IMG/VR virus record: IMGVR_UViG_3300030116_005147
Location: 1 to 55,990 of that record
From: a virus
DNA: 55,990 nucleotides
Reading direction: 5' to 3' (one strand)
Below are positions 97 to 55,990 of this stretch, in pieces. The position numbers and the translations under genes are program-made. Numbering within the stretch: position 1 is the stretch's first letter; the number at the start of each line of letters is the position of its first letter. Under the pieces are notes generated by a model. That model ran no database searches and was not told the DNA's origin. It saw only the letters and a program-made list of their open reading frames with translations.

Positions 97-3000
97 AAGA
101 ACTAATGCGCGGAAAAGGCGTTGTTTTTGTTAGACAAGCTACTACCGAACAAAGAGCAGCAGCCGCTCGCAATTCCGGTATTCCTTTCTTATACAATACT
201 TTTGTTCCTTCTGCTCCTAGCGACACGCTCTATGTCAACGAAGACGGCTACGTAGTCGCTACAGAGAATACGTTTAAAGAAGGATCTTTTGCTATTGATT
301 ACACAGCGCAAGTTTTTAACAGCACTATTGCCTACACAGGCGCTGTGGGACACGAGCTTTGGGACTCAGGCGTTATCTCAGACATGTCGAGTTTTGCAAC
401 TACCGAAGACGGTAGTTTTAACTGGCAAGGCTTAGGCGGTCAGCAAACGCTTAAGCACCGAGTTGCTGAAGGAGAAACTTTAGAGGACATTGCTTTTAAG
501 TACTACGGCAGTAGAGAAAACATGCACGGTCAGTTGTGGGTAGAGCGGCAGCGTGTTGCGTTAGGTTTAGGCCCCGGCGAACAACCCCCCGTGGGCACTC
601 GCGTCTCCGTACATCGTGATGTCTTTGATGTGTTGAACAAAGCCGCTGCTGTTGCTCTGGGTACAGCAAAGGATGTAAACGTATGGGAGGAGATGGTAGA
701 AAGAGAGCAGTTGTTGGCAACAGAACAGCTTCTTGATTTGGCCGAGTGGTCTGCTCACAACCTGGATTTATCGGGCTCTGTTACGCTTCCTTTTGGCGGC
801 GGCCCGACGATGACCTCTGAAATAGAACTTCTTTCCTGGGGAGATTTTGACTTAGATACTAAGTCTGCCGCCTTGGGTGCTCTCTTTGCTACTAGCGGCA
901 TCTATGCAGACGTACGAGCAATAGATGCCTTTACTGGTACTATGGTTATTGCAGGTAAAGGTATTCAGGCTGGTAAGGCTTATAGGCAAGCCCGACAAGT
1001 CGAGCGCACTGCTAACGAGATGGTCAAGGTTGTAGACGAAGCGTACGATTACGACAGCCTGGTGCAGAAGATTAGAGAGATAAACCCTGGTGCAGACTAT
1101 GTGTACGAAGCCAAAGTAGCTGCGGCTATGGGTATAGACGAGAACGTATCGGCTCAGCTTAGGGCATTGGACAGAGCCAGAGAGCAAGAACAGATTCTTC
1201 TTCGCCGGGCAGAGTTAGACGAAGAGAGTTTGGTTTCTCAAGTAGAGAGAGCGGAGGCTACTGCTGCAAAAGACAGGGCAACAGAGAATATTCTGGAGAT
1301 ACAACTTAAGTCAGAAATACTTAAAAAGGAAGCTTACGAATCTGTTGTATCTGCTTTAGACAAACAAGGAGCGGTGGCAGCGGCCAAAAAGTACAAGCAA
1401 GAGCTTGAGGCTGCTGGAGTATTACAGAAACAAACAGACGCAGCGGTTGCTTCTCGTGATTCGTTTATTGCGAAGGAGACAACAAAGAGCCACGTTAGGA
1501 CTTTAGAAAACAACCAGAAGCAGATTAAGGATGCTGTAGAGCAGGAGAGCGCTGCGTCAAAGTCTTTTTCTGTAGAGGCAGAAAACGTAAAGACTGTTGT
1601 TACTGACCTTCGGCTTCAGAAGAGATCTCTTAATGCGCGAATGGATGAGTTGCGAGCAGCGCAACGACAAGAGCTTGATGACATTGCTCTGCAAGCACAA
1701 CCCGTACGTGCTCCTACAGCCGAACTGGTTGTAAGAGCCAAGAATGCAGGCGTGCCTATAGACATTAACAGACCCCCGACAAACCTTAGCAGCTTTAGAA
1801 AAAAAGTTAGTAGAGCAGAAAGCAAGGCAGGTAAGAAAGACGTTAATCCAGACGATGTGGAAGCCGTTCAAAAAGAACTCGATAAGGTGGCAGCGGCTAA
1901 CAAGAAGAAATCAATCAGCAAAAGAAGAGCAGGACAAGAGGCTGCGAAGAAACGTCACAAGGCAGAAAAACAAGAAATCTTAGATCAAATCAAAGACGTT
2001 AACAAAGACATTAAGTACCTGACCGCTAAAAGAAAACCTGGAGCCGAAAAGCTTGAAGGAAGCCCGGATGCGGAAAGGTTTTACAACAAAAAGAAAACAG
2101 CCAAAGAACGATTAGACAAGGCAAGAAAAGCCCGAGAAAGCCAAGTAAAGCAGGCCCGAGAGTATCGGGCATCTAAAGAAGCAAAGAAAATAAGAGAAGA
2201 GCTAAAGAAATTAGACGCAGAGGTGTTTCGATCGAACGCTGCCTTAGCTCGCGTAGAAGGCTCCGCCTACTCTCGACTAGCAGCTTACGCTCCCGGCATC
2301 AACATGGGCGTGCTGAAGAAGTCAGACGCAGTTGATGCGCTTGAAGAAGCAGTTCAAAGAAACAAGCAAGCTGCTCTGGATGCTGACGAAGCAGTTGCTG
2401 CTGCCAAGAAGAAATACCTTGAGTTTCAAACCTCTCGTAAGACCGCTCAACTATCTGCGCGAGAGGCAGAACGCGCTTTAGATAAGTTAATCGAAGTTAG
2501 GGACAGAAAAGCTCGCTTAGAGCAGAGCATTCGCGGCCAGACAGAACAGCAAGATGTTTGGCGTAAGATTGCTCTAAACATGGCAAGAGAGCTTAGAGAA
2601 GGAAACGGGTTGCTAAAGGCGTTCCCTGACCAATCTGTGAAGTTTGTAGACCCTCTTGGTCCTTCTACTATGTCTGTAAACGCACGCACCGGAGAACGTG
2701 TCATCGACACAAAACTACTTCGGAAGTCTTACGACGAGATGTACGGAGAAGACGCAGTAAATCACTTCTTAAAAACAGAGCCGGAAATGGCTAAGCCTCT
2801 CAATAACTTGTTGTCTAAGACAGGAGAGGTAACGCTGTCTGGAAGCGAGGTGTTTGGTATTCAGCAACTCCAGGCTGGGCTTCTTCGGGCTCGTGAGGCA
2901 GTGCATCCCAAAGCGCAATCGATAGCAACGGTTCGTGCTATTGCACAAGCCAAGGGAGATGTTGACATGATGCGCGTTTCTTTACGCGCATCCAAGAACT

Positions 3001-6000
3001 ATTTTAAGAGAGCTGGTCAAACGTTTTTGCACACGATGTCTTTGAATCCCGATTGGTTGGCGTACACGGCTGCTCGTATAGAGAACCAGTTTAACTCTAT
3101 CAACAATCGTGTCGGCCCTATCGCGGGTGAGTATGCTGCTCTGTTGAAGTCTGCAGACTACAGCGCGTCTATGATCAATGACGATTTGCGTTTGATTCAG
3201 AGAGAAGCACACGGCGGTACTCTTTTGGGAGGAGCCCCAGGTGTTGTCTTAGAGACTTTTAACGCCAACAAGAAATCGCTTAACTCTCAGAAAGCAACCA
3301 ACCTATATTTTGATTTGGTAGATGGGGACGTTCAGCGTCTTAGTACTACGGTCTTTGGAGAAGTAGAGGCTGTTGATGTTATCCGTGGTCTTCAGCAGGA
3401 AGTTAAAAGCTTAGACGAAAAACTTAAGGACATAGACAGAAAGCTTAAGATAGAGAGTGAAGTACCCGGAGAGACTCTTCTGGACGATGCTCTTCGGGAA
3501 GCCAGCGAAAACCTTACTATCAAGCAAAAGGAGTTGGAAGAAGCAGTAGCTGCTCAGCGTGTTTTAGAAGAACGCTTTTATAAGATGAAGCGAGACGTAG
3601 TTACTCAGTCCAATCGGCTTTCTGAAGAAGCAGATCTTTTAGAAAAAACCACTAAGGTATCAGACAACGAATATTCCGTTTTTAATAACTATACCGCTGC
3701 TATGCAAGCTAGAGAAGCTGGAGATACAGTCGCTTTTCAATCCAGAATAACAGACGCAGCGCAAGCATCTGGTGTGTTTTCTCCAGCTAAAATACGAGAC
3801 ATGCGTACAGGCTTCTTAAATGTTTTTGGGGACGCAGAAGAAACAGTTCTTAGAAACCTGGCTGCTGCTGTAGAGACAAAGCTTACACGTCCGCAGGCTT
3901 TGCGCCAAGAAGCAGACGACCTCTTGGTTGGTTTTGAAAGAGGAAACCACCCGCAGCAGAACAACTACGACCGCTTAGTAGCCCAGATTAGAGAATCCCA
4001 AGTCGAGGTAGCTGCTGCGGAAAAAGCAGGTAAGTTAGCAGAAGCTCGTATTAAAAACTTAGAGAGAGGTCAACTCCCCGAAGACCTTATGGCTGCTCTA
4101 ACCAGCAGACAGCAAGTAGTTCGTAAGCAACACGAATACAAACGCTTAGAGCAGAAAGTAGCAGTTCGACAGAAAGACGTAGATAAGTTGGACGCTGAAA
4201 TTGAAGACCTTCAAAACCAAATAGACACAAAGCCCGCGCAGATACAAGAGGAAATCGCTAAGCTTGAGCAAAAAGCTGCGCCCCTCTACACGCGACTACA
4301 GGCTGCTCAATACGTCGGAAACGTAGACGAATCCAGCGACTTGGCTGCAAGCATCGCAAGTATCAATAAAGAAATCGACGAAGCCCAACTGCGCTTTAAT
4401 GCGTATGCAGAAACGAGAACAAACACAGTCGACGGTTCGACTATTGTTGAGCCACGGTTTGATAACACCAACCCTTTATATAACCGAATCGAAAAAGCAA
4501 GGGCTCAACGAGACGATGTTTTTGCTAAGCTATCGAGTGATCAAGATTTATTAGCAGATATTAACACTGAGCTAAGACAACTAATCGATGAGGTAGGGTT
4601 TACTTCAATCAACAGCGAAACGAAGCTGGCTTTAGTACAAGAGCGTAAGTACGTAGAGCGCTTGATTGCGGAAACAAACCAGAAGATAAAAGACCAAACT
4701 AAGAAACCTTCTTACAAGGAAGCGAGTGATTTCTTAGAGTTTAGTGACGAAGGCAACGCACTTCGGGCTGCTACGGTTCGTAAACTAAAAGCTGAAAATC
4801 GACTTGAGCAGCTACAACAAAACTCTTCTTTTGTTGCTGGAGAATCTGAGTTCCACGCTCAGTTGCTTAAAGTAGCTATCGAGCAGGAGAAGAACGAGCT
4901 TGCTAGAGTACTACAAGCCACAAAGCCCGAAGAAGGTACGATATCTAGCGTTCAGAAAAGAATAAGCAACGCTCGACAGATTGCAAACGCTCTAAAGAAA
5001 GAGCCTTTGATTGACTCGTACGAAGAGACTTTGCGTCTTCTAACTAACCAAAAAGCGTTTACTTACGGCATGCACATTGAAAAGTTAGCAAGCGCAGAGC
5101 AAGAACTCTTGCTTGCAACACGGGCGTTTGACGAAGCAAAGCCAGCGTACAGCCAACGACTAAAAGCGTTGATGGACGGCGACGAGGTAATGCCTGTAGG
5201 CAATCGACAACACGGAGAGCTTATCGTCAAGAAGAACATTCCTATTAAGGTTGGGGCACGAACAACTGCGTCTAACACGGGCATGACTGTTCCTTGGGAC
5301 GATGCTGTTCATCAGTTTCGATACACTGACTTACTGCACTTCAATAAAAAAGTAGAAGCAGCAGCAAAGCAACCAGGTAACTTTTCTACCAACTTAAGAA
5401 ACCACGGTGTGTCTGAAGCGTTCATGGGATTGTCCCGCATGTGGTTACCCAGAGGACACAAGCTGTCGGATTACAACTCAACAGAGCTTTTGTCTTCTGC
5501 AGCAGACATCTTGGCGTCAGGAAAAGGAACTACTTTCAGAGAGTTCTCTGACGCTATGAGGTTGAAAACGTATCAGATTATTAAAGAAACTTCTGGTATT
5601 CCAGAACAAGCGTTGTTGGATTTAAACTCTACGACGAAAGCCGCTGAAGCAGAGCACTCTATCGCTATGGGCGCGTACAATGTTTTACGAGCATCGTTGC
5701 TCAAGAAGACACTGGACAGAATGGTGACCACGCATGGAGCGATGTTCACTACTAAACAAGCCGATGCGATTAACGCTTTCTTAGGTGCAGAAGCCGGAAT
5801 CAAATCTATTGACCCCGCAGATTGGCCAGACGTTGTCGAAGGACTAAACCGTCTCGGCACACCGATTACTCAAACGCACGTAGGTGCTCGCCACGGACTT
5901 GCAGAAAAAACCACGCGGCTAATCGCTTCGGGCGCTACTGCTGAGGGCTCTACTATTTACGCCAGAGAAGATTTGATTGGTGCCATTAACGATGTCTTTA

Positions 6001-8060
6001 ATGACGCTGCTAAAAGATCAGATAGATTCTACCGTGCTAGCAGTGATTCTCAGATGGGGCTGGGCTCCAAAGTTGCAAACAACAAACTGTATTCTATGTG
6101 GAAACAGAGCGTTACCACCGGGCTGATTCTACCGAATCCTCACTACTGGGCTAACACCGCAGTGGGTGACTTTTCGCAAATGGCTTTTACGGTTGGTTAT
6201 GGAACAGCGACCAAGCAAAGCCTTATGAACCTGCCTCACTTTGTTCCTGTATTAGGTAAGTACTGGCAGCCCTGGGTGTCTACAATGACGCACTGGTCTT
6301 CAAACAAGCCTGTCTTGGGGACACTGACAAACGCCTGGTTTAACCCGCACTTAAACAGCATCTGGAACAGAAAGCCCGGTTACATTGTTTTTAAAGGCGG
6401 GCAAACTGCTTCTTACGACGACGTATATCGCTTTGCTGTAGAAGACGGCATCATAGATTCAGTCATCCAACAAGAGTTCTTGGCTGCTTTAGATAGAGGC
6501 AAAACAGCAGCTATGAAAAACAAGTTTGAGTCTATGGCTACCATAGGCAAGAACTGGAACGAAGATATCTTGTTGTTTGCGGACTTTGCCCAGAAACGAC
6601 AAAGAATGGCTTTGTATGTAGATTTATTGCAGAAAGGCTATACAAGAAAAGAAGCGGCTCGTCTTACTTTAGAGGCTTTGTACGATTGGAAGCACGGTGT
6701 TTCTCAATGGGAAGTAGCTAAGATTTTGTGGATGAGCCCGTTCTGGCGGTTCTGGAAGAATGCTCTTAAGCAAACTGCTCGTGTCTATACCGACCCGCTT
6801 ACGAAGCCAGACAAGGTTATTCAGGAGCTTATGGCTTCTGGGCTCGGAGAAGTACCTGCGGGGTCTGCGGCTGCTCAAAGAATGCGTCAAACACTTATTG
6901 CTGCAGATCGAGGCGGCGAGATGTTGTATGAACAGTTTGCTCAAGACACAGAACCTGCCCAAGCTCGTTTCTATACGGACGTATTAGAAGATGGAAGGGC
7001 ACAACTAAAAGAAGTCTACATGGACGCTTCGGTGTTTATGCAAGACTACATGTTAGACAATCTTTACTACGGAACAACTACGCTGTCTGACCAGAAGCGG
7101 AAGTTTTTTGATACTGAGTTAGTTCCTTTGGGTGGTTTGTTAGACCCTCTGGGTAACGCAATGGGTATCGCCCCAGGAAGATCTCCCTTCCCAGACTCTA
7201 CGTCTGTAGACGCTCACAGGTCTTACACACACGCTCACTACATAGGTCCAAAGTTCTCTACCATAGAGTCGTTTGTCTTGTTCTCTACCCTTTCTGCTTG
7301 GGCTGTTTCTGGCGGATACGCTGCAAAAGAAGCAATAGAAAACGGAGAGGACACGGTCATAACACCTGACTTTATAGAGGACTTCGTACTAAAACCCTCT
7401 ACAAAAGTAATCGGCGGACCCGTAGCGTTTCCTATGTTGGAAGCTGCAGCCAAGATGGGCGGCTACGAGATTCCTTTTGGAACCTTAGACAGGTACGCGT
7501 ATCGAGGAGGATACAGTTCAACGCTGTCAGAAGGAGAAGCTTACCTAATGTCTGCAATGAACCTGAACGTTACACCCGCAGAAGCAAGAGAACAACTCAA
7601 GGAAGATCCAAAACCGTTTACTCCAGGCACCGCAGGAAAGTACGTAACCGACAACGCTTTTGGACTGTTCCTCTTACGGAACCTGCCCTTCGTAATGCAG
7701 CTACCTACTAAAGTAGATCAAGCTTACTTTAGGAATCCAGACGTGCAGAGAGGTTTGTTTCCCGCCGCATACGGTGCTTTTCAACAAATGGGAGGACTGC
7801 CTTATAAGCCCGTATACTTTGATCCCAAGCAGATATTTACAGGCAAACAATACGAAGTAGACAGCCAGTTTAAAGCCATGAAAGAGAAGTACGGTAAGCT
7901 GGAAGCAGATAGGAAAGCAGCTAAGTCGCGTGCTGCAGCCGAAAGGGACTTAGAGCAGAACATCGAGTTCTTGCGAGGCGAAGGCGAGATAGCACCGTTG
8001 CCGGAAGGAATGTCTACGGACGAGCTATTAGAGGGTTTTGGCGAAACAGCCGACGAGTAA
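1..8060 (+). CDS. Giant internal virion / DNA-ejection-type protein, C-terminal 2,687 residues (continues from 54004)
   Basis: This is the remainder of the gene that starts at GTG 54004. Codons run in frame from base 3 to the TAA at 8058-8060. Across the join the product is 3,316 residues, and the first in-window ATG (105) is residue 666. A LysM-like segment lies at about residues 781-836, with the pattern HRVAEGETLEDIAFKYYG followed by a late RVSV. Long Lys/Glu/Ala-rich coiled coils fill about 1020-1480 and 1760-2300. Residues about 2660-2915 form an aromatic, partly hydrophobic module (NPHYWANTAVGDF, then SPFWRFWKN) that resembles the conserved C-terminal part of large polyvalent or ejection-type phage proteins I know. 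Position after the tail and internal-virion genes fits a protein ejected with the genome, like T7 gp16, though no lysozyme or transglycosylase motif was recognised. An N4-type virion RNA polymerase of similar size was considered, but I could not find its catalytic motifs. Confidence 0.85.
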   Translation, partial: EITIRVTNSPSDRLSHYAEKIAHQKAKKIINQELMRGKGVVFVRQATTEQRAAAARNSGIPFLYNTFVPSAPSDTLYVNEDGYVVATENTFKEGSFAIDYTAQVFNSTIAYTGAVGHELWDSGVISDMSSFATTEDGSFNWQGLGGQQTLKHRVAEGETLEDIAFKYYGSRENMHGQLWVERQRVALGLGPGEQPPVGTRVSVHRDVFDVLNKAAAVALGTAKDVNVWEEMVEREQLLATEQLLDLAEWSAHNLDLSGSVTLPFGGGPTMTSEIELLSWGDFDLDTKSAALGALFATSGIYADVRAIDAFTGTMVIAGKGIQAGKAYRQARQVERTANEMVKVVDEAYDYDSLVQKIREINPGADYVYEAKVAAAMGIDENVSAQLRALDRAREQEQILLRRAELDEESLVSQVERAEATAAKDRATENILEIQLKSEILKKEAYESVVSALDKQGAVAAAKKYKQELEAAGVLQKQTDAAVASRDSFIAKETTKSHVRTLENNQKQIKDAVEQESAASKSFSVEAENVKTVVTDLRLQKRSLNARMDELRAAQRQELDDIALQAQPVRAPTAELVVRAKNAGVPIDINRPPTNLSSFRKKVSRAESKAGKKDVNPDDVEAVQKELDKVAAANKKKSISKRRAGQEAAKKRHKAEKQEILDQIKDVNKDIKYLTAKRKPGAEKLEGSPDAERFYNKKKTAKERLDKARKARESQVKQAREYRASKEAKKIREELKKLDAEVFRSNAALARVEGSAYSRLAAYAPGINMGVLKKSDAVDALEEAVQRNKQAALDADEAVAAAKKKYLEFQTSRKTAQLSAREAERALDKLIEVRDRKARLEQSIRGQTEQQDVWRKIALNMARELREGNGLLKAFPDQSVKFVDPLGPSTMSVNARTGERVIDTKLLRKSYDEMYGEDAVNHFLKTEPEMAKPLNNLLSKTGEVTLSGSEVFGIQQLQAGLLRAREAVHPKAQSIATVRAIAQAKGDVDMMRVSLRASKNYFKRAGQTFLHTMSLNPDWLAYTAARIENQFNSINNRVGPIAGEYAALLKSADYSASMINDDLRLIQREAHGGTLLGGAPGVVLETFNANKKSLNSQKATNLYFDLVDGDVQRLSTTVFGEVEAVDVIRGLQQEVKSLDEKLKDIDRKLKIESEVPGETLLDDALREASENLTIKQKELEEAVAAQRVLEERFYKMKRDVVTQSNRLSEEADLLEKTTKVSDNEYSVFNNYTAAMQAREAGDTVAFQSRITDAAQASGVFSPAKIRDMRTGFLNVFGDAEETVLRNLAAAVETKLTRPQALRQEADDLLVGFERGNHPQQNNYDRLVAQIRESQVEVAAAEKAGKLAEARIKNLERGQLPEDLMAALTSRQQVVRKQHEYKRLEQKVAVRQKDVDKLDAEIEDLQNQIDTKPAQIQEEIAKLEQKAAPLYTRLQAAQYVGNVDESSDLAASIASINKEIDEAQLRFNAYAETRTNTVDGSTIVEPRFDNTNPLYNRIEKARAQRDDVFAKLSSDQDLLADINTELRQLIDEVGFTSINSETKLALVQERKYVERLIAETNQKIKDQTKKPSYKEASDFLEFSDEGNALRAATVRKLKAENRLEQLQQNSSFVAGESEFHAQLLKVAIEQEKNELARVLQATKPEEGTISSVQKRISNARQIANALKKEPLIDSYEETLRLLTNQKAFTYGMHIEKLASAEQELLLATRAFDEAKPAYSQRLKALMDGDEVMPVGNRQHGELIVKKNIPIKVGARTTASNTGMTVPWDDAVHQFRYTDLLHFNKKVEAAAKQPGNFSTNLRNHGVSEAFMGLSRMWLPRGHKLSDYNSTELLSSAADILASGKGTTFREFSDAMRLKTYQIIKETSGIPEQALLDLNSTTKAAEAEHSIAMGAYNVLRASLLKKTLDRMVTTHGAMFTTKQADAINAFLGAEAGIKSIDPADWPDVVEGLNRLGTPITQTHVGARHGLAEKTTRLIASGATAEGSTIYAREDLIGAINDVFNDAAKRSDRFYRASSDSQMGLGSKVANNKLYSMWKQSVTTGLILPNPHYWANTAVGDFSQMAFTVGYGTATKQSLMNLPHFVPVLGKYWQPWVSTMTHWSSNKPVLGTLTNAWFNPHLNSIWNRKPGYIVFKGGQTASYDDVYRFAVEDGIIDSVIQQEFLAALDRGKTAAMKNKFESMATIGKNWNEDILLFADFAQKRQRMALYVDLLQKGYTRKEAARLTLEALYDWKHGVSQWEVAKILWMSPFWRFWKNALKQTARVYTDPLTKPDKVIQELMASGLGEVPAGSAAAQRMRQTLIAADRGGEMLYEQFAQDTEPAQARFYTDVLEDGRAQLKEVYMDASVFMQDYMLDNLYYGTTTLSDQKRKFFDTELVPLGGLLDPLGNAMGIAPGRSPFPDSTSVDAHRSYTHAHYIGPKFSTIESFVLFSTLSAWAVSGGYAAKEAIENGEDTVITPDFIEDFVLKPSTKVIGGPVAFPMLEAAAKMGGYEIPFGTLDRYAYRGGYSSTLSEGEAYLMSAMNLNVTPAEAREQLKEDPKPFTPGTAGKYVTDNAFGLFLLRNLPFVMQLPTKVDQAYFRNPDVQRGLFPAAYGAFQQMGGLPYKPVYFDPKQIFTGKQYEVDSQFKAMKEKYGKLEADRKAAKSRAAAERDLEQNIEFLRGEGEIAPLPEGMSTDELLEGFGETADE

Positions 8061-27215: not shown

Positions 27216-27731
27216 TCACTTCCTATGTTTTGGTTGTTCATATGTTTCTACTAAGCAGCGGGACTCCCACTTAGGGTGGAAGATGAGCACCGCTGACGGT
27301 GCTGGAGAAGGCCCGCCTTCCTTCTCTCCTTGTCTAAACTTTAGCCTGCCTTTGATGAGCAGGATGCGGCTGGCTTTCATGGCGTAGTCATGCCACCACC
27401 GGGTGTCCGTCCGGGCAAATACCAAGACGACCACGTACCTACCCCCATCTAGCAGAGATTGTTCGTAGGCTTTCTGTACCCACTTGCCCACGTCCCTACC
27501 GTAGGGAGGGTTCAGCCAGATGTCGGAACCCGGCCATCGTTCCATAGCCAGGGCATCCTCTCCCAGGTCCGAGCCGGGGCCGAGGTGTCGGATACACAGG
27601 GACGATTCCTTAGTCGCCGCCGCATCCAGGTTGAACAGGAACGTCTCGTTCAGTTCATCGAACAGCCAGTGCGGTGTCTGCCAGCACATATCCTTGGACG
27701 AGAACAGCCCGTCCTGTTTCCAGTTACTCAT
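27216..27731 (-). CDS. Dam-like DNA N6-adenine methyltransferase (171 aa)
   Basis: The catalytic motif NPPYGR lies at about 74-79, preceded by a Trp-led strand (GSDIWL). FNLDAAAT at 33-40 is the usual SAM-side motif of phage N-6-adenine methyltransferases, and residues 105-150 have the family's LVFARTDTRWWHDY and LIKGRLKF strands. Length fits the Dam (PF05869-type) family. ATG 27731 lies in a GGAGGTGAGTGATGA junction. GATC is the expected target of the family. Probable role: protecting phage DNA or marking origin or control sites. Confidence 0.85.
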   Translation of the reverse strand: MSNWKQDGLFSSKDMCWQTPHWLFDELNETFLFNLDAAATKESSLCIRHLGPGSDLGEDALAMERWPGSDIWLNPPYGRDVGKWVQKAYEQSLLDGGRYVVVLVFARTDTRWWHDYAMKASRILLIKGRLKFRQGEKEGGPSPAPSAVLIFHPKWESRCLVETYEQPKHRK

Positions 27732-31435: not shown

Positions 31436-31762
31436 CTACTTGGGCGTCCAGCCAGCGTCAATCCGTCGCTTGAATGCGAACATCGCAGTGACCGCGTCCC
31501 GGTACGGGCGCTTCACTCCTGCCACGGGCGGGCTGTCCCGGTATCCTGTCCGGTCACCGAGCCGTGTCCATGTGGGGTGTGGTCCTATAACCCCCGGTCC
31601 CGGTTGGACGGCTGCGTCCGACGGGACATAGGAGAGGCACCACGCGACCTGCGGCTGCGGGTCCAGGCGCCGCACTATCACGGACCCGAGCACTATCACC
31701 CCGTCACCCGCTGGGATCGTTCCGCCGTATCTGATGTGCCGCTGTAGCTGGTCAAGGGTCAT
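31436..31762 (-). CDS. Hypothetical protein (108 aa)
   Basis: ATG 31762 follows GGAGGTAGCAGC and overlaps the preceding stop. Beta-rich first half (GGTIPAGDGVIVLGSVIVRR), then Pro/Gly-rich, then a basic end (KRRIDAGWTPK). No family recognised. Confidence 0.5.
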   Translation of the reverse strand: MTLDQLQRHIRYGGTIPAGDGVIVLGSVIVRRLDPQPQVAWCLSYVPSDAAVQPGPGVIGPHPTWTRLGDRTGYRDSPPVAGVKRPYRDAVTAMFAFKRRIDAGWTPK

Positions 31763-32622
31763 GCTGCTACCTCCTGACCTTCTGCCCATCGGGTGAACGT
31801 GCCCACACCGGGGCCGTGTACCTCGATCGTTTTGTTTGGTCGTTTGCTGTTAGTCTCGGAGCCATCGCACTGTAAACAGACGGCGCAGGGTACTGGGCTG
31901 TCACCCACTGCGGGGCATGGTTTCTCGCCTGCTACATCGGGTTCACCGGGTGCCTTCGCTCGGAAGGTACGCCAGCCAGCCGATCGTGCTCGGAGTGAAT
32001 CGGCCAGGGTAGCAGCGGAGGCGGTGAGCCAGTGCCAGCCCTCACCCAGGACAGACCATCGGGCAGTGTACCCGGTGTATCCCTTGAGAACGTGGCGGAA
32101 TGAATCCCATACATGTAGCGGGACCATGCCGGGATCCCCGTATGCACCGAACCGAACCACGGACCCAGCGAAGAACTCCGCGCGGTCATCCTCGGACAGG
32201 TAAGGGTAGCCGCCACGGTTCCAACATTTCCAGACAGAACCGGCAGCCTTCGCGAGTTCCACGTAGCAGGTCCCCTGTCCACCGCTGGCCTTGCTCCGGT
32301 GGATGCATTCGACCGGACAGTTAGCGCCAGCATCCGCACCAGCCATGTAGGCATCCATCGGGCTCATAGCCTGGAGTAGAATCCAGATCTGTATCATATC
32401 GCTTGTCTTATCGTTGTTGCTGGCCTGGTCTGTAGCAGTGGCGATCACCACGATCGGGGCGCCGTTACCCGTGCTCGGCCCCTCGTACAAGACCACGCCG
32501 TTAACGTAGCCGGATCCGCTGGGGCGTTGGAGCAATGCGCGGAAAGCTTTCCGTCTAAGCTTGCGCCCCACTTTCATAGCTGCTCGGTGGACGATATCGG
32601 CTTTCAGTTGTTTGGTTTTCAT
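31759..32622 (-). CDS. DUF7227-like phage protein (287 aa)
   Basis: The order SDMIQIWILLQAMSPMDAYM, then GANCPVECIHRSKASGGQGT with cysteines, then SVWKCWNRGGYPYLS, then VRFGAYGDPGMVPLHVWDSF, then GYTGYTARW and GWRTFRA, ending with a CPA...CAVCLQC cluster, matches a family I recall from many phages and plasmids (DUF7227). The conserved cysteines suggest a metal site. It is the largest gene of the leftward accessory set, with the AATAGGAAATAGAAACC leader. Biochemical role unknown to me. Confidence 0.65.
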   Translation of the reverse strand: MKTKQLKADIVHRAAMKVGRKLRRKAFRALLQRPSGSGYVNGVVLYEGPSTGNGAPIVVIATATDQASNNDKTSDMIQIWILLQAMSPMDAYMAGADAGANCPVECIHRSKASGGQGTCYVELAKAAGSVWKCWNRGGYPYLSEDDRAEFFAGSVVRFGAYGDPGMVPLHVWDSFRHVLKGYTGYTARWSVLGEGWHWLTASAATLADSLRARSAGWRTFRAKAPGEPDVAGEKPCPAVGDSPVPCAVCLQCDGSETNSKRPNKTIEVHGPGVGTFTRWAEGQEVAA

Positions 32623-32648
32623 GGTTTCTATTTCCTATTGGTTTGGGG

Positions 32649-32948
32649 TTATGGTAGTTCGGTTCTGATTACTTTTAGGGCGTCGTCCCATTCATGCATG
32701 TCCAGGCATGACATGAGCCCATCAAGGGATAGACCTACACCGCTGCTAATATCAGGAGCATTCCGCCACATGGTATGGACTGAGCACTTCATAGAGTACA
32801 GCGCCCTTTCAAAATCGCTTTGCGCTTGTTGTTTTCTCTCAAACATTGAGTCCGATTGATAGGACAGGGATGGTCCTGGCGTGTTCAGAAATTTTCTCTG
32901 TAGTGATTTAATTTCTAAGACTGACTGAATAAGAAGATCGCGTGTCAT
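32649..32948 (-). CDS. Hypothetical helical protein (99 aa)
   Basis: Starts at ATG 32948 with the shared AATAGGAAATAGAAACC leader. Mostly helical, with a long amphipathic region (ERKQQAQSDFERALYSMK) and WDDALKVIRTELP end. No family recognised. Stop lies just before the next leader. Confidence 0.55.
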   Translation of the reverse strand: MTRDLLIQSVLEIKSLQRKFLNTPGPSLSYQSDSMFERKQQAQSDFERALYSMKCSVHTMWRNAPDISSGVGLSLDGLMSCLDMHEWDDALKVIRTELP

Positions 32949-32974
32949 GGTTTCTATTTCCTATTGGTTCGGGG

Positions 32975-33265
32975 TTAGCTTTGTTCTTTGGCTGCCACGA
33001 TATGGAAGGCTGGCCGGTTCACGTATTCAGGATCCTGTGGACCGTAGGCAGTGATGGACGCCCACAGTCCGGGGCATGGGGGCATGCCTTGGAGTACTTT
33101 GCAGGAGTCGGTGTCGATCGTTTCACACGCGTGTCTGTTCACTGCCTCACCCAATGCCTCGCGTATGCAGGATGCCTCGACCGTATAGGATGCGACCTGT
33201 ACAGATCCCTTCCATCCGTCGATCTGTTCAAATGTTTTCTGCGTTTGAATTACATAGCGTGTCAT
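32975..33265 (-). CDS. Hypothetical protein (96 aa)
   Basis: Begins MTRYVIQTQKTFEQIDGWKG with strand-helix character and three cysteines (ACETIDTDSC; PPCPG). Its leader is a one-base-shorter copy of the shared cassette. No membrane segment. Small accessory early-type gene of unknown function. Confidence 0.5.
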   Translation of the reverse strand: MTRYVIQTQKTFEQIDGWKGSVQVASYTVEASCIREALGEAVNRHACETIDTDSCKVLQGMPPCPGLWASITAYGPQDPEYVNRPAFHIVAAKEQS

Positions 33266-33269
33266 GGTT

Positions 33270-33455
33270 CTATTTCCTATTGGTTACTGATTTATGGGCG
33301 AGATCTACAGATCTCATGTCGTCAATGTTCGCTAGTGTTACCCAGCTATTGGATTCCAGCGATATCTTCTTAGCTGCTGCCATAGCTCCAAAGAAACGAC
33401 CGGTAAAGGTGCGTGTCTCGTTGGTGGCGTGGATTGTGATCAGGTAGTCTTTCAT
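33270..33455 (-). CDS. Small beta-rich protein (61 aa)
   Basis: MKDYLITIHATNETRTFTGR then FGAMAAAKKISLESNSWVTL. The last residues (VTNRK and stop) are spelled by the leader of the next gene. Resembles small 'strand-helix-strand' phage proteins. Function unknown. Confidence 0.5.
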   Translation of the reverse strand: MKDYLITIHATNETRTFTGRFFGAMAAAKKISLESNSWVTLANIDDMRSVDLAHKSVTNRK

Positions 33456-33460
33456 GGTTT

Positions 33461-33694
33461 CTATTTCCTATTGGTGGGGGTTAGTCCGCACATCCACGTT
33501 CGGAGCCGCTTGCCAACTAAATCATTCGTCTGGTATTCAGACAGGCCCATCGCTTTTCCTTCACATATGATTTCCCACTTGATCTGGTAGTAAAGAGCAT
33601 TGATTTCACGGCACCTTTTGGCATCTAATGAGTCACATTTGTGGAGGGTTATTGTTCCGTCTGCGCTTTTGATCTTTAGGTTTAAGGTGGGCAT
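33461..33694 (-). CDS. Small basic protein (77 aa)
   Basis: MPTLNLKIKSADGTITLHKC then DAKRCREINALYYQIKW; ends LTPTNRK with TNRK-stop supplied by the next leader. Two Cys in the middle, one near the end. No family recognised. Confidence 0.5.
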   Translation of the reverse strand: MPTLNLKIKSADGTITLHKCDSLDAKRCREINALYYQIKWEIICEGKAMGLSEYQTNDLVGKRLRTWMCGLTPTNRK

Positions 33695-33699
33695 GGTTT

Positions 33700-33933
33700 C
33701 TATTTCCTTTTCTGAGATTGACGTTTGATAGCTGCCGCGATCCGCCGTTGTCGGGCTTGATCGCGGAATGATTGAATGGAATCAGAGATCTCCTGATCGA
33801 TCGTTCCGTTGTATGCTTGCGGCCTACCGTAGACCGGCGACGTGTCAACGGTTCGGATCACTCCGTTGATCTTGGCTGAATCGGGACGACCGGGCAGGCC
33901 TCCCATATGGGCAAGGAATGGGGGGAGACTCAT
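33700..33933 (-). CDS. Small protein with basic helical tail (77 aa)
   Basis: Gly/Pro-rich N-terminus (SLPPFLAHMGGLPGRPDSAK), then a helix rich in Arg and Gln (SIQSFRDQARQRRIAAAIKR). Ends QKRK; the KRK-stop is part of the next leader cassette. Its ATG overlaps the stop of the upstream gene. Confidence 0.5.
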   Translation of the reverse strand: MSLPPFLAHMGGLPGRPDSAKINGVIRTVDTSPVYGRPQAYNGTIDQEISDSIQSFRDQARQRRIAAAIKRQSQKRK

Positions 33934-34202
33934 GTTGCACCCTCCGCGATAGCTTGATCAATGGGGAAGCCAGGAACCGGATCATCTTGGACTATTGATA
34001 CGTTGCTGATGTCCAGGCCTGGATATCTGCGCAGAATATATAGCGCCCAGGCTTTAGCCGTTGCATGGTTAGAGCACTGTTTCCTGTGGACTATGCCACC
34101 ATTGAGGATCTCTACAGACCACCGCCCAGATAGGGCGTGATCCCCTGACACGAGATGGCCCAGGGCATATGACAGACCGTTGATTGCTTTGTTGATGCTC
34201 AT
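33930..34202 (-). CDS. Hypothetical protein (90 aa)
   Basis: SINKAINGLSYALGHLVSGD then SGRWSVEILNGGIVHRK, CSNHATAKAWALYILRRYPG. A strand-hairpin plus helix, perhaps a small nucleic-acid or protein-binding fold. ATGA overlap at both ends. No family recognised. Confidence 0.5.
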   Translation of the reverse strand: MSINKAINGLSYALGHLVSGDHALSGRWSVEILNGGIVHRKQCSNHATAKAWALYILRRYPGLDISNVSIVQDDPVPGFPIDQAIAEGAT

Positions 34203-34378
34203 TTGATACCCCCTGCGATCTCAGCTTGTACATCACGTTCGCTCTGATCGATCGCGTTCCAGATCTGTGGATAGTCGCGGATCAATAGGGCGATCGCTCG
34301 GGTTGTAGCTGGCATACCATACTGTTCTTCAGCTATTGACAGGTCAATGTATCGGTTCACAATTTCGTTGTTAGACAT
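34199..34378 (-). CDS. Small helical protein (59 aa)
   Basis: Begins MSNNEIVNRYIDLSIAEEQY, middle ATTRAIALLIRDYPQIWNAI, ends AEIAGGIK. Start has GGAAATTAGAACC after the CCCTGAA repeat spacer. ATGA overlap with the next gene. Function unknown. Confidence 0.5.
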   Translation of the reverse strand: MSNNEIVNRYIDLSIAEEQYGMPATTRAIALLIRDYPQIWNAIDQSERDVQAEIAGGIK

Positions 34379-34390
34379 GGTTCTAATTTC

Positions 34391-34428
34391 CAGGGTTCAG
34401 GGTTTCAGGGTTTCAGGGTTCAGGGTTT
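34391..34428. repeat. CAGGGTT(T) tandem repeat spacer
   Basis: Five units of CAGGGTT or CAGGGTTT lie between the 34427 stop and the 34378 start. Read on the minus strand they are TAAACCCTGAACCCTGAAAC and so on, with the TAA serving as the upstream gene's stop codon. The repeat resembles a telomere repeat in form only. Confidence 0.75.
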
Positions 34429-34621
34429 ATTGACGCGGTGGGCATGGATTGACGGGAAAGTCCGGGTCGGAATGGATAGCGATTGCGTCAACATCGATCG
34501 AAAGTATTCGATCAATCAATTGTGCGTCCGTTTCTCCTGTCTTCCTGCGAGGCATAGCCACCGGTTTGGGCAGTTCGTCAACGATAGATAGGTGCATGGA
34601 TTGCGCTTGTGAAATGGTCAT
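34427..34621 (-). CDS. Small hypothetical protein (64 aa)
   Basis: MTISQAQSMHLSIVDELPKP, then a basic segment (MPRRKTGETDAQLIDRI) and acidic end. Start has GGAAATAAAACC. Stop TAA is the first triplet of the tandem repeat spacer. No family recognised. Confidence 0.5.
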   Translation of the reverse strand: MTISQAQSMHLSIVDELPKPVAMPRRKTGETDAQLIDRILSIDVDAIAIHSDPDFPVNPCPPRQ

Positions 34622-34632
34622 GGTTTTATTTC

Positions 34633-34654
34633 CAGGGTTCAGGGTTCAGGGTTT
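34633..34654. repeat. CAGGGTT tandem repeat spacer, second locus
   Basis: Three units of the same repeat as at 34391, placed in the same way between a stop TAA and the next gene's GGAAAT-AAAACC ribosome binding site. Second occurrence of one junction type. Confidence 0.7.
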
Positions 34655-34844
34655 ATGCGTCTGATCGTTGGGCTACTCGCTCGGCGTATCGATGCGATAA
34701 GACGGCAGCAACACCAGGATCAGAAGGATCACCGACTTGTTCACAATAAACGTTTCTGAGAATGATTAGCTCCTCTACAATTTTAGCGTCGCCATTGATT
34801 AGGTGGTGTCGGATTAGTCCGTTGAGAATTTCGATTGTTGTCAT
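34653..34844 (-). CDS. Small helical protein, first gene of leftward accessory operon (63 aa)
   Basis: ATG 34844 with AAGGAAC upstream; a longer start at 34886 would run into the leader hairpin. MTTIEILNGLIRHHLINGDA, then VEELIILRNVYCEQVGD, ending VAQRSDA. Helical, cytoplasmic. No family. The structured leader upstream suggests translational or transcriptional control. Confidence 0.55.
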   Translation of the reverse strand: MTTIEILNGLIRHHLINGDAKIVEELIILRNVYCEQVGDPSDPGVAAVLSHRYAERVAQRSDA

Positions 34845-34857
34845 GGTTTTGTTCCTT

Positions 34858-34917
34858 GTTTCCGGTTCTAAACCTGACACGATCACGATCGATCATGCCA
34901 GGATCCGAACCGGAAAA
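34858..34917 (-). promoter_or_regulatory. Structured leader hairpin of accessory operon
   Basis: TTTCCGGTTC (34859-34868) pairs with GAACCGGAAA (34908-34917). An inner CCTG/CAGG pair encloses ACGATCACGATCGATCAT, which is dense in GATC. A stem of this kind ends just before the first gene of the leftward operon. Could be an mRNA control element or a binding site for a methylation-sensitive protein. Confidence 0.5.
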
Positions 34918-34920
34918 TTG

Positions 34921-35004
34921 GCCCGGTCGCTATCTCCTTCTCTCCATATTTTGGGTTTGTCTCTCCATATTTTGGGTTTGTACACTTTGAGACAGCGACC
35001 GGGC
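34921..35004. repeat. 11-bp inverted repeat enclosing a 21-base tandem duplication
   Basis: GCCCGGTCGCT (34921-34931) and AGCGACCGGGC (34994-35004) are perfect inverted repeats. Between them TCTCCATATTTTGGGTTTG occurs at 34941 and again at 34962. The element lies in the leader of the leftward operon. A looped stem or protein-binding array is possible. Confidence 0.6.
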
Positions 35005-35526
35005 ATCAAATAAAATCACCCCATTGCCTATGGGATTAGATGGGCGGGAATTTCCAACGTGTCACTACATAGGGTGCCTCCTATGCCGTCGGTGTGCTTG
35101 CAAGCTTGAACGGTTCCACTCACTTATCTATTACGGTGATCATTGTCCGGGGCTCGCTCCCTACCTCGCTCGGGGCAGATCATAGCTGTTCGGACGATCC
35201 CGCAATCCTTTAGATCGTGTACTGCGTTCTTACTTGGGGGTTGGTGCTGTCATGGCACTGTCCCGTCCATCATTGCGCTAGGCTGTTCGGTTCTGTATTC
35301 CGGTGGAGAATGCGTCTCCACTGGTCAAGGGTTGCCGGATATTGGCTTTGCGCTCTACGTATATTGGGTTTGTCAAAGATCGCTCGCTGTTGTCGTTCCT
35401 CAGTCGTTAGCAGCGAGTGGAGATTTGAAAGAACTAAATAAGAATGATTTACAATCACGTAACCCATTAGACCATAACGTGAATATAGCGTGATTTAACT
35501 GTAGGTAAGTTCTCTAATTTATTCAA

Positions 35527-35746
35527 TAAAATCAACAACTTACGTCATTCAGCGAAAACCCAGTTTAAACCTGCATTATCGGCTAAAAGATCCTAAAAGA
35601 TCCCCTAAATTAACTATTTCTGTCAAAGAAATGTCAAGACTGAAAACCCAGTTTAAACCTGCGTTTTCGCTGAATCTGTCTATTAGATTAACTAATAAAA
35701 TTAGCCAGATTTTAAAACCAAAACCCAGTAAAATCAACAACTTACG
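35527..35746. repeat. Nested direct and inverted repeats
   Basis: TAAAATCAACAACTTACG occurs at 35527-35544 and 35729-35746. GAAAACCCAGTTTAAACCTG starts at 35554 and at 35642, and AAAACCCAGT appears again at 35720. ATTCAGCGAAAAC (35547-35559) is inverted as GTTTTCGCTGAAT (35663-35675). CTAAAAGATC is repeated in tandem at 35583 and 35593. The ordered nesting suggests a protein-binding complex, a second origin, or a packaging site. Confidence 0.7.
35609..35637 (-). promoter_or_regulatory. Candidate leftward promoter
   Basis: Minus strand TTGACA (35637-35632), 17-base spacer, GTTAAT (35614-35609). The -35 is perfect, the -10 matches at four of six. It could serve the leftward accessory operon, although its first gene is about 760 bases away. 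Confidence 0.3.
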
Positions 35747-35805
35747 GCTACTGGTCTTGACAAGCCAATAGCGTTTAAAGGGCCGTAAAGGGGCCTACAC
35801 GGCCT

Positions 35806-35821
35806 CTGAATCGAAATTCAG
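35806..35821. other. Hairpin CTGAAT-CGAA-ATTCAG
   Basis: A perfect 6-bp stem with a CGAA loop, extendable by flanking GGCC on both sides, followed by more GGCC-containing repeats and the 12-bp palindrome GTGAGGCCTCAC at 35852-35863. No T-run, so not a convincing terminator. Confidence 0.5.
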
Positions 35822-36193
35822 GCCCTACCATGTAAAATCGTCCGGGAGCCCGTGAGGCCTCACAGCGGCCAAATTCGCAATTTTGAGATCTGGCTAAATT
35901 TAGCCTATTTTGTAAACGCTGTTCACTGTTTTAAACCGGCCAATTTCGGGTATCGATTAAACGGCCTGACAGCCCCGTGGTTCTATCCAGATCTGTATCC
36001 GTCCCACTGTAGATCAAAACGATCGGAGGCATTCAGGCCAGCACAGCGACCGATAGAAGCGATCAAAAAAATAGAGAAAAAAGAGATCGATTAAGGCTCC
36101 GATTAAATTATTTATTTTTAGGCATCCCGACTTTCGACTACCCCCCAATCCAATCCAACCCCCCACTCACATCAATACTTATTTTTTCTGATA

Positions 36194-40149: not shown

Positions 40150-40473
40150 ATGCCTATGACATCCGATGGAAAGCGTCTTCCTTACAAAGAAGACTACATG
40201 AAAGCCGCTAAAAAGAACATGGGCATGGACATGCCTGAAGAAATGCCTGAAGGAGAAATGCCTGAAGGAGAAATGCCTGAAGGAGAAATGCCTGAAGAAA
40301 TGCCCCCTATGGAAACGGCAACGCTTCAGTTGACATTGACTCCAAACGCTATCGAAGAGCTTTCTAAGCCAGAAAACAAAGGGGAGCTTGAGAAGTTAAT
40401 TACTGCAGGCATCGTAGCGATGAAAGAAGGCGCTGAGATGATGGACGATGCGATGCCAAAGGGAGAAGACTAA
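40150..40473 (+). CDS. Acidic repeat head protein (107 aa)
   Basis: AGGAG precedes the ATG. The N-terminus LPYKEDYMKAAKKNMGMD is followed by four EMPEG/EMPEE units encoded by near-identical 15-base repeats, then a helical domain (IEELSKPENKGELEKLI). The YMxAAKK segment recurs in the 41281 and 41607 products. Lies between portal and scaffold genes. Probably a small head assembly or minor capsid factor. Confidence 0.55.
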   Translation: MPMTSDGKRLPYKEDYMKAAKKNMGMDMPEEMPEGEMPEGEMPEGEMPEEMPPMETATLQLTLTPNAIEELSKPENKGELEKLITAGIVAMKEGAEMMDDAMPKGED

Positions 40474-40799
40474 TGGCTCTTCCTGCTCTGGCTGCTCTTA
40501 TTCCTATGTTTACTGGTGCGGGTGCTGCTGGTGCTGCTGGTGCTGCTGGTGCTGCTGGTGCTGCTGGTGCTGCGGGGACTGCTGCTGGACCGATTGGTGC
40601 TGCCTTGGCTTCTCCCGGTGGACAAGCAGCACTTACTGGAGCAGCAAAGTTAGGCAAAGCTGCAGAAGAAAGACAAATGCAAGAAGCAACGCAGCCTAAG
40701 CCTTCTGAAACGTTAGCTGCTTCTGTTCCTCAAAACAGAGGACAAGACCCTTTTGGCGCGGCAGCTATTAAAAGAAGATACAACCAACTACTGGGTTAA
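40473..40799 (+). CDS. Ala/Gly-repeat membrane-like head protein (108 aa)
   Basis: MALPALAALIPMFTGAGAAG leads into repeats of GAAG encoded by tandem GGTGCTGCT, then a helical part (AKLGKAAEERQMQEATQ). The hydrophobic repeat could insert in a membrane, as in some internal core proteins. TAATG overlap with the previous gene. Function unknown. Confidence 0.5.
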   Translation: MALPALAALIPMFTGAGAAGAAGAAGAAGAAGAAGTAAGPIGAALASPGGQAALTGAAKLGKAAEERQMQEATQPKPSETLAASVPQNRGQDPFGAAAIKRRYNQLLG

Positions 40800-53800: not shown

Positions 53801-53976
53801 TGTCTTCTAAAATGCCTGCTCCAGACGCAGTAGACTCTACAACCGCAGCAGACCCTACAACCGCAGCAGACCCTACAACCAAAGAAAAAGAGCGCAAGCG
53901 TAAGCAGCGTCTTCTGGATAGACTTCTTGAGAAAGCGTACGAACTTCCTTCTACAGGAGGAGTTCCTACTATCTAA
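50881..53976 (+). CDS. Large internal virion protein (1,031 aa)
   Basis: Coiled-coil and helix-rich throughout: a first acidic helical domain, coiled coils at about 150-300 (RQISELQRAKARLLGEQQK) and a mixed middle with FDQYMQRFGYTDPEKAFEYF. The long Pro/Ser/Thr-rich C-terminus ends in tandem AADPTT repeats and a basic helix (KERKRKQRLLDRLLEKAYEL). Together with the next gene it has the place of T7 gp15/gp16. GGGGAATACG precedes ATG. No enzyme motif found. Confidence 0.6.
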   Translation: MDLFSEIEKLKGDDLVEARALLLLFQKVNIPLDTIVKAFNESEERPDKVIDFLRKQANDSEDARAYVYEGYEGGAQRVADLFAQAETTRLSDILPQATAPQTVADEPVVEDLKEEASDLAPEVVEEALTIPQRLSGIIPSRRRLEQELDSDLIEKATELRKLDRQKAAYDAAFRAGNFAREMAGQAPLQYGFAPAIAPEELSAEEIAAQKTALLRQISELQRAKARLLGEQQKSGRESGRTQREIYQMLLKMQEERIKTMTDAEEKRYNDLQVRFKEAGKQIDDAREELDLRKNKKAGTVETAVTKYLDNTSGLGRQEVIQEAFNTLQADKLAQYLLIKRTAEAYSADTIVNEGGKFKIGPRTFLDENEFVEAALTLGVDDANRDSIRQAFKDFKSQAVRVNELEQDQIEIRKQLDELVWPGVSKFYADKLRTANPWFEQQFGSSSGLGVVQAAPPASDISNASSYVASVAPGAVLAGSQVKMPSGDVVSYDDFVSQFPSAIYNPETQSYGSLAPATRFLEETIEQIQDEISDLDEPSLSEMQERKQEIMEDPRFDQYMQRFGYTDPEKAFEYFLSDYAARRKISGPVTDRQKRDAAIMSGQALGTLPQRIGAVARTALGPAGRDRRQRRRQAILNILSPGAKKSRITETDARTTVPTEDAPETAPARAVASPPPAPTEESTLPLVWTEAEGTPYAKYSFDADGNLTMTRYNPETKAYDGETKIIDPDKNKKAYDAITALRSNPEKGKGLVFPEKPASGADAETQTAVGRAVVQEAVEGKQAPTALPRQVPLSKEQFKDELSRIPDAPEDIQMSPLERLRFALDERRMRPLKEGSRARAKSEAEGAARRKDVGIKAAEDAISRARMLDEEPPAWALATIDSLPLAPQDRGEIRAEGSEAPGSLVDPAPAPSETPGSPGGSPGVPLGVSARSDEERPNVGYIQQGVTTAKQRTGIPEQGGDAFPSAIAYVGEPEVSSKMPAPDAVDSTTAADPTTAADPTTKEKERKRKQRLLDRLLEKAYELPSTGGVPTI

Positions 53977-54003: not shown

Positions 54004-55990
54004 GTGACTACCCCCAAGACGTTCGGACTAAAGAAACCAACAGGCACAAGAAGTTTTGGTTTAAAGGAACCAACAGGCACAAGAAGTTTTGGTTTAAAGG
54101 AACCAAAAGGCACAACCAAAACCGATAAAAGTGCTGGTTCTCAAGAACCCACAGGCACAAGAAGTTTTGCTTTAGAGGAACCAAAGGATGTTTCTGAGTT
54201 TCTTGTACTTACAGAAACAAAACCGCCTCCGCAAGTAGCCGTCAAAGGCCAAGTGGCTGCTTTAAAGAACCCGAAAGATTACACAGACGAAGACTTAATC
54301 TTTCCCGAACGTCAGCTTCTAAAACAAACGGTTGATGTAAAGAAACGATTTGAGCAGCGAACAAGTCCTTGGTGGGTAGGCGCTCATACGGTTGGAACGG
54401 AGACTGTTGGTGGCGGGGTAGAGGTTCCTCAGTACGCTCGTGACAAAGACTTTGTCTATTACGCTGGGGCTCCTAACAGGATTGACGAAGTTATGGGCTT
54501 GACGCGAAGGGCTACGTATGAAGAGATAGACGCGAACATAGCCAAGTTAGTTGAGAAAGGGTTTAATCCCTCTATTGCTTTGGAAATGGCACCGGTCTTG
54601 GCCTGGAAAGACGAGCTTTCCAGAGAAAAGGCGATGAAAAGTCGCTTTTCAAACAAGGCGTTGAAGAGTGATAGAGACTTATCTAACGAATATGTACAGA
54701 GTGTTGGTGAGTTTTTAAAAGAAGAAACAGATCTTCGCTTGGCTGTGGAGGAGCTTTACCGAGATACAATCGCTAAGTTCTCTGTAGATCAAAAATATCC
54801 TGAGACAAAAGAACAACAGGTAGCTGCACTAAGGAAACTCAACGCCGAAGGAACAGAGCAAGACAAAGAAATCGCAGAACACGGCTTTAACTACCTGCAG
54901 GACACGAGGTATTTGCTAAGAGCCGCAGGCGAAGAATACAACACAGGGGTTAAAATCTCTGAGCAGCTACAGAAGACAGCTTGGATTCGGCAACGAAACG
55001 TCTTATCGGACGAGATAGCAAAAGAAATAAAAGACAATGCTCCTGAAAACTACGCACAAGCATCTGCCTTAGCAGAAGAAATTGTAGGGCTAAAAGGAAA
55101 CGACGAGCAGTTTGAGTACTACGTAGATCCCTCTGGCTACGCTACCACGTCGGGCCTGAAGACTTTGGGAAAAGCCACTTTGTCGGACGACTACGTTCAA
55201 GGCTCTATAAAGTCTGGTATTTACGTAGACCAGGAAGGCGCTGATGTTTTATCTGTTCGTCCTTTTGGCGGTGGAGGAACACTTAGAAAAAAAGACAGCC
55301 CGTTACCGGAAGACTTCAAAGCCCTCTACGAGAACTACGACCGCTACCAAGCAGCCGTTAAGAAGGCGGCACAAGACAAAAACCCGCAGATGCTGAGTCA
55401 GCTCATTGCGTATAAGAAAGCATACGGTGCGCTTCGTGCGTACGAAGCAGGTTTCCAGGTAGGCGAGAAAGTAGAGCTTCAAGGCCAACGCATTGTGCGG
55501 AGGCCAGACGAAAAAGGAGCGGCTGCGGCGGAGAGAGAAGCGGCTACTAAGTGGGCTCGCGAGATTATTTTCTTAAACGATGTTCTTGCTTATCGAAATA
55601 ACCTTGTTGCACAGCAAGTAGATACAGCGGCTGAGTTCGCTGGAGTCGATCCCAGAGCAATGGCTGAGATTGTTTTTAGTAGGAAGCTACAAGCTTCTGG
55701 CGCAAAAGCAAATGAGCAGGCGTTTGATTATGAAGCTACCTTTAACGCCATCAAAGAACATCAAATGACCGTAATCGCTCAGTCTTTGGGGTATGAAGAC
55801 TACGAAGACATGGCGTATTCTGCAGATACAGTGGAAAGTCTTTCCAGTCCCGATGCACGAAAAGGCGAGTACACGTACATAAACAGTTTAGGCGATGAGA
55901 TTACTATACGTGTCACTAATAGTCCCAGCGACAGACTAAGCCATTATGCAGAAAAAATTGCTCACCAGAAAGCAAAGAAGATTATCAACC
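54004..55990 (+). CDS. Giant internal virion / DNA-ejection-type protein, N-terminal part (continues at base 1)
   Basis: GTG 54004 has GGAGG five bases upstream; ATG 54000 is too close to that site and opens only a 41-residue frame. The frame is open to the contig end and continues through base 1 to 8060, giving 3,316 residues. The N-terminus has 11-residue repeats of the EPTGTRSFGLK type (54031-54183), then a compact domain (DYTDEDLIFPERQLLKQTVD) and a largely helical region. See the entry at base 1 for later domains. The last 96 bases duplicate the contig start. Confidence 0.85.
   Translation, partial: MTTPKTFGLKKPTGTRSFGLKEPTGTRSFGLKEPKGTTKTDKSAGSQEPTGTRSFALEEPKDVSEFLVLTETKPPPQVAVKGQVAALKNPKDYTDEDLIFPERQLLKQTVDVKKRFEQRTSPWWVGAHTVGTETVGGGVEVPQYARDKDFVYYAGAPNRIDEVMGLTRRATYEEIDANIAKLVEKGFNPSIALEMAPVLAWKDELSREKAMKSRFSNKALKSDRDLSNEYVQSVGEFLKEETDLRLAVEELYRDTIAKFSVDQKYPETKEQQVAALRKLNAEGTEQDKEIAEHGFNYLQDTRYLLRAAGEEYNTGVKISEQLQKTAWIRQRNVLSDEIAKEIKDNAPENYAQASALAEEIVGLKGNDEQFEYYVDPSGYATTSGLKTLGKATLSDDYVQGSIKSGIYVDQEGADVLSVRPFGGGGTLRKKDSPLPEDFKALYENYDRYQAAVKKAAQDKNPQMLSQLIAYKKAYGALRAYEAGFQVGEKVELQGQRIVRRPDEKGAAAAEREAATKWAREIIFLNDVLAYRNNLVAQQVDTAAEFAGVDPRAMAEIVFSRKLQASGAKANEQAFDYEATFNAIKEHQMTVIAQSLGYEDYEDMAYSADTVESLSSPDARKGEYTYINSLGDEITIRVTNSPSDRLSHYAEKIAHQKAKKIIN
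54031..54183 (+). repeat. 33-base tandem repeats in giant gene
   Basis: Copies of ACAGGCACAAGAAGTTTT plus flanking GGTTTAAAGGAACCA recur four times, with a diverged unit, and encode EPTGTRSFGLK-type peptides. Probably a flexible adaptor or binding repeat. Prone to copy-number change. Confidence 0.8.
55895..55990. repeat. Terminal direct repeat, right copy
   Basis: Identical to bases 1-96. See the left copy for interpretation. Confidence 0.9.

Follow-up and report, generated by a model that had tools for sequence, protein, structure and literature searches.

It is an open question by what means phages acquire and shed their numerous tiny orphan genes while keeping operons intact. The 55,990-nt stretch of viral DNA analyzed here (IMG/VR record IMGVR_UViG_3300030116_005147; hereafter the window) carries a leftward array of small genes. 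A preliminary description had noted that five of these genes share almost the same leader, and had seen in it a module by which small genes could be swapped or added while coupling is kept. Judged from its sequence, the motif is most likely a translation-initiation leader of an array of small orphan genes lying in a compositionally foreign island; there are also hints that small genes may be exchanged at it.

The Repeated Leader and Its Junctions

The 20-mer leader AATAGGAAATAGAAACCATG has three exact copies in the window, starting at 32620, 32946, and 33453 and all on the minus strand, where dinucleotide shuffles (n = 100) give an expectation of 0 copies. They occupy 32620–32639, preceding the 287-aa gene (31759–32622, minus strand) that is the last behind the leader; 32946–32965, preceding the gene at 32649–32948; and 33453–33472, preceding the gene at 33270–33455. 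Two further minus-strand copies are near-exact: one at 33263–33281 with a 1-nt deletion (AATAGGAAATAGAACCATG, which lacks one A), preceding the gene at 32975–33265, and one at 33692–33711 with one mismatch, preceding the gene at 33461–33694. The consensus is AATAGGAAATAGAAACC, and the final ATG of every copy is the start of the next small ORF in a tight leftward array. A TAG within the leader ends three of the upstream genes, leaving the C-termini TNRK (copies at 33263 and 33453) and QKRK (copy at 33692); at the remaining two of the five junctions, the upstream gene stops at a TAA that precedes the ATG by 26 nt. The preliminary description of the repeat was correct in every detail given, both for the five leftward genes with near-identical leaders and for the unrelated proteins that end in TNRK or KRK through a stop inside the leader.

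The conserved unit exceeds the one first described, reaching upstream as TAACCCC(G/A)AACC. Junctions 32622 and 32948 have TAACCCC(A/G)AACCAATAGGAAATAGAAACCATG in common, and junction 33265 (TAACCAATAGG...) is the same block minus one 7-nt unit. At junction 33455 (TAACCCCC-ACCAATAGG...), the block is translated in a different frame and supplies the upstream protein with its C-terminal LTPTNRK, a result that would follow if non-coding DNA had been placed behind the upstream gene. Gene 34621 has the leader TAAACCCTGAACCCTG...GGAAATA-AAACCATG. Two divergent leaders on the minus strand, GGAAATAAAACCATG after three heptads (34619–34655; gene 34427–34621) and GGAAATTAGAACCATG after five CCCTGAA-type heptads (34376–34429; gene 34199–34378), raise the tally from five small genes with the near-identical form to seven with the looser form counted. 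In our reading, the junctions would follow a common plan, stop - (AACCCYG)n - (AATA)GGAAAT..A(A)ACC - ATG, with the number of heptads ranging from ~0.6 to 5 per junction. The first gene of the array (34653–34844) has the leader AACAAGGAACAAAACCATG (34842–34860, minus strand), preceded by a 26-nt inverted repeat forming a 5′-UTR hairpin (34859–34916, minus strand), which is kept in a sister phage (L005) with G-U and G-C changes that preserve pairing.

At the seven junctions, stop and start are 4, 5, 5, 26, 26, 31, and 48 nt apart; conservation thus does not extend to tight coupling, and the proposal that the leader serves to keep coupling is unsupported. The motif is absent before three members of the array (starts 34844, 34202, and 33933) and is therefore not needed for translation. 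The window also has a second repeated leader, GGAGGTGAGTG(A/G)TG, at 31065, 28806, 28411, 27731, and 27055 (minus strand); at these junctions stop and start overlap or touch, which leaves GGE or SGE at the C-termini of unrelated proteins, and here coupling does look conserved.

Probable Ribosome Binding and Identity Beyond Chance

The motif carries AGGA ~10 nt ahead of the ATG, at which position it would pair with the anti-Shine–Dalgarno (SD) sequence, while the A-rich spacer may hold the start open. The leaders have little structure and are more open than most other leftward starts: mean unpaired values are 0.62–0.82 at the seven motif junctions vs. 0.23–0.67 at ten other leftward starts. The bases flanking AGGA are conserved as well.

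Each leader might have reached the optimal start context of the host independently, with neither copying nor any role in exchange. The leaders are SD-like and A-rich, and those of relatives are also SD-based, as such convergence would have it; however, the identity extends over 17–20 nt including non-SD bases, and on into TAACCCC(G/A)AACC, whereas neighboring genes in the same genome use very different leaders (e.g., GGAGGTGAGTG). When scored with a position matrix derived from 22 other window leaders, two 17-nt leaders would be identical with a probability of about 1e-8; thus, SD constraint alone is an insufficient explanation, and we regard convergence as unlikely.

Conservation outside the SD core, and the pairing of one genome with one sequence, would also suit a site at which a phage or host protein, or a small RNA, switches the whole array, beyond ribosome binding; a regulator-type role was likewise left open for the repeats of cluster K mycobacteriophages (PMC3203893). 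No candidate regulator was identified, though, and an Rfam search of the region gave sub-threshold chance matches only, which makes a regulatory site a distinctly improbable reading. Predicted promoters and terminators gave no signal above chance level.

Proteins Encoded Behind the Leader

The 287-aa protein is the only one behind the leader with a convincing family match (phrog_2554, unknown function); it has relatives in 148 phage records, and four homologs show ~40% protein identity. For the small genes, searches of Pfam and PHROGs gave nothing convincing (best E 0.005). No relatives were found by tblastn of joined small proteins against 50,697 phage records or by an exact-peptide scan of IMG/VR, both of which are insensitive (the former through the joining of queries), and no versions of the small genes were detectable in 34–35 related contigs.

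Repetition of the leader could stem from tandem duplication of gene plus leader, after which the proteins diverged past recognition and the leader stayed. Two observations fit: genes 32948 and 33265 both carry ATGACACGC after the leader, and the best pair in shuffled alignment, 33265/33694, has a score reached by 0 of 200 shuffles. Yet that lone high score comes from an alignment of 28 residues with few identities, among 45 pairs tested; BLASTP among the array genes detects no significant similarity (best within-array pair, E 0.08); and neutral divergence that erased the proteins should have erased the leader too. Paralogy of the small genes is thus unsupported and duplication quite unlikely as the source of the repeat, while some of the proteins might still be very distant paralogs of one another.

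A Compositionally Foreign Island

The array lies within an island (32640–36000, i.e., about 32.6–36 kb) that is rich in GATC and does not avoid AATT. GATC density is 14.5/kb in 32640–34844 and 13.2/kb in 34845–35600, vs. 2.0–3.2/kb in most of the window; the corresponding values for the contig end of L005 are 13.9 vs. 4.3. GATC stands at ~4 times the composition expectation both in 32640–35600 and in L005 1–720, even though the two phages differ in their first gene. The window encodes a Dam-like methylase at 27216–27731. Outside the island, AATT is found 26 times vs. 94 expected, and inside 11 times vs. 12.7; it is nearly fully avoided in four relatives (L021, L007, L022, and L027), with zero occurrences in the last three. 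CTAG (14 vs. 144 expected) and GGCC (68 vs. 148 expected) are also scarce in the window outside about 32.6–36 kb. The scarcity of AATT, CTAG, and GGCC looks like restriction avoidance that an imported island escaped, and the array has the look of a recent acquisition, or of one made piecemeal out of a different background.

The heptads were considered as a host marker: arrays of them followed by GGAAA occur in a Blastocatellia MAG and in two further MAGs; this leader accompanies none of them, and no host is therefore assigned. The Blastocatellia MAG SSF51 (L082, L083, L084, and L086) has many (AACCCTG)n arrays resembling those before 34621 and 34378. A cyanobacterial source, an idea drawn from the CGATCG-rich island, was dropped.

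Distribution of the Motif and Leaders of Related Phages

Among 2.9 million viral contigs in IMG/VR, the exact 20-mer occurs once elsewhere, in an unrelated phage (L004). A 17-mer search retrieves 37 contigs, all with a single copy and most belonging to one unrelated family with a 19-codon ORF, and a 23-mer is absent from the genome collection. The terminase adjoining the array retrieves 40 relatives; in 0 of 34 related contigs is the motif found within three mismatches. In its exact form the motif is private to this phage, and a dispersed module that moves between phages, as the preliminary description had it, is not supported.

Some relatives have repeated leaders of their own. L021 carries AGGAGAAACC before 10 ORFs when those of at least 45 aa are counted (shorter ones raise the number), L007 carries GAGGTAAAGA before 7 ORFs, and weaker sets occur in the leftward arrays of further relatives. 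The L021 array is a more extreme case than the window: at 91–6012, small genes follow one another leftward over a long stretch, nearly every one preceded by AGGAGAAACC or GGAGAAACC and N0–2 ATG. A background of 103 phage loci (1.03 Mb) served for comparison: in 97 of them no 10-mer leader is common to three ORFs, and the maximum is 4; by the same count the window has 5, and mycobacteriophage TM4, a published case that served as positive control, has 6. Most background loci were retrieved by a leader pattern, by which the control errs, if anything, toward repeats; being shorter than the window they err in the opposite direction, yet the five copies of the window together span no more than 1.1 kb.

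Possible Gene Exchange in a Sister Phage

The terminase of L005 is 97% identical to that of the window, and its contig ends just inside the array. Window positions 34852–34923 are 94% identical to L005 over 72 nt, with diverged DNA on both sides; this stretch, which takes in the beginning of the leader, forms a strong hairpin, and the L005 differences retain pairing. Directly behind the hairpin, L005 has GAGGAAATTAGAATCATG and then a different gene (family phrog_4653), which shows no detectable similarity to any of nine small genes tested from the window array. The L005 leader matches junction 34378 at 15 of 17 positions, the near-identical copies at 12–13 of 17, and its positional homolog at 8 of 17.

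The preliminary description had suggested looking for gene gain and loss between close relatives at these junctions, and that comparison yields one case in which a different gene stands behind a kept hairpin and leader type, suggesting that at least one gene may have been exchanged at such a leader; because this is a single junction at the end of a fragmentary contig, it is suggestive and not proof. The claim that small genes are swapped or added holds to that extent: unrelated genes share the leader, and the first gene differs in L005, in a single instance at a contig end.

We consider it probable, if by no means sure, that the motif acts as a ribosome-binding leader for the small accessory genes of this leftward array and was spread by copying and recombination at gene junctions. 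The leader would have been copied from junction to junction, via recombination or duplication, and not invented each time, and we propose that incoming small genes would therefore inherit a working start site. Exchange of genes at the leader, the last step of this scheme, is partly shown by L005.

The foreign composition of the island and the different gene in L005 could also point to a dedicated mobile cassette or a site-specific recombination site. Against this, the motif is without dyad symmetry and is not spread in viruses or genomes, there is no integrase or transposase among the scanned proteins, and the RuvC-like resolvase and PD-(D/E)XK exonuclease that are present serve general recombination; such a cassette is very improbable.

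Comparison With Known Systems

Cluster K mycobacteriophages have Start-Associated Sequences (SAS/ESAS; 5′-GGGATAGGAGCCC) (PMC3203893), and Microbacterium cluster EF phages have a SAS-like sequence (5′-GGGAAAGGACCCC) (PMC7302621). The leader resembles both as an over-conserved repeat at the ribosome-binding position before different gene families, in one orientation and a non-structural region, sometimes holding the stop codon of the upstream gene; it is likewise rare outside its group, and function is putative throughout. As in cluster K, the repeat lies immediately before start codons, and all copies are on the minus strand, in an array left of the terminase.

Membership among SAS fails, however, on four points. 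The consensus shares only ATAGGA (AATAGGAAATAGAAACC here vs. GGGATAGGAGCCC; in the SAS scan, the TM4 control gave nine SAS within two mismatches). Spacing is invariant here, with the motif abutting the ATG, whereas it is 3–7 bp for SAS. The paired 17-bp inverted repeats of ESAS, found at about half of SAS sites, are absent from the motif junctions, which have a variable heptad spacer instead, and the one hairpin lies upstream of the first gene only. Finally, SAS are conserved across related phages, whereas the motif is not found within three mismatches in 34 related contigs and its looser form occurs once (L005). Because relatives carry repeated leaders of their own, we regard the window leader as an extreme example of a phenomenon already known, comparable to the cluster K SAS: a real and unusual, genome-private, SAS-like family in an imported small-gene array, and not categorically new.

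The leaders of L021 and L007 are like that of the window in genomic position (upstream of a homologous terminase), in polarity, and in being SD leaders before many small genes; they differ in sequence, and in L021 the distance to the ATG varies from 0 to 2 nt. Going by the account in PMC3029335 (citing Susskind and Botstein, 1978; Clark et al., 2001), the conserved boundary (linker) sequences proposed for lambdoid phages are the counterpart of the exchange idea, and may be similar as short junction sequences with another gene behind them in a close relative (here L005, in one case at a contig end). Unlike those, the present motif is a clear ribosome-binding leader, has one apparent exchange to show, and repeats within one genome, not among many.

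A tentative and rather doubtful extension is that a genome-specific leader (AGGAAATAGAAACC here, AGGAGAAACC in L021, and GAGGTAAAGA in L007) might act as a socket for small accessory genes, being at once a ribosome site and a short homology for splicing-in. If so, any new ORF spliced in behind it would be expressed at once. With its uniformity inside each genome, its differences from one genome to the next, and another gene behind it in a sister phage, such a leader offers a testable case of short-homology exchange at ribosome sites, and would connect the SAS repeats of mycobacteriophages, so far unexplained, with something more widespread among uncultivated phages.

Other Repeats in the Window

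An AT-rich intergenic region at 35547–35675 has iteron-like direct and inverted repeats (GAAAACCCAGTTTAAACCTGC) and is a possible replication origin. A perfect 21-bp tandem duplication at 34939–34981, within a larger inverted repeat (34921–35004), is absent in L005. Short tandem repeats occur at 40239–40297, 40517–40584, 53826–53880, and 54029–54115, with units of 15, 9, 18, and 33 nt, respectively.
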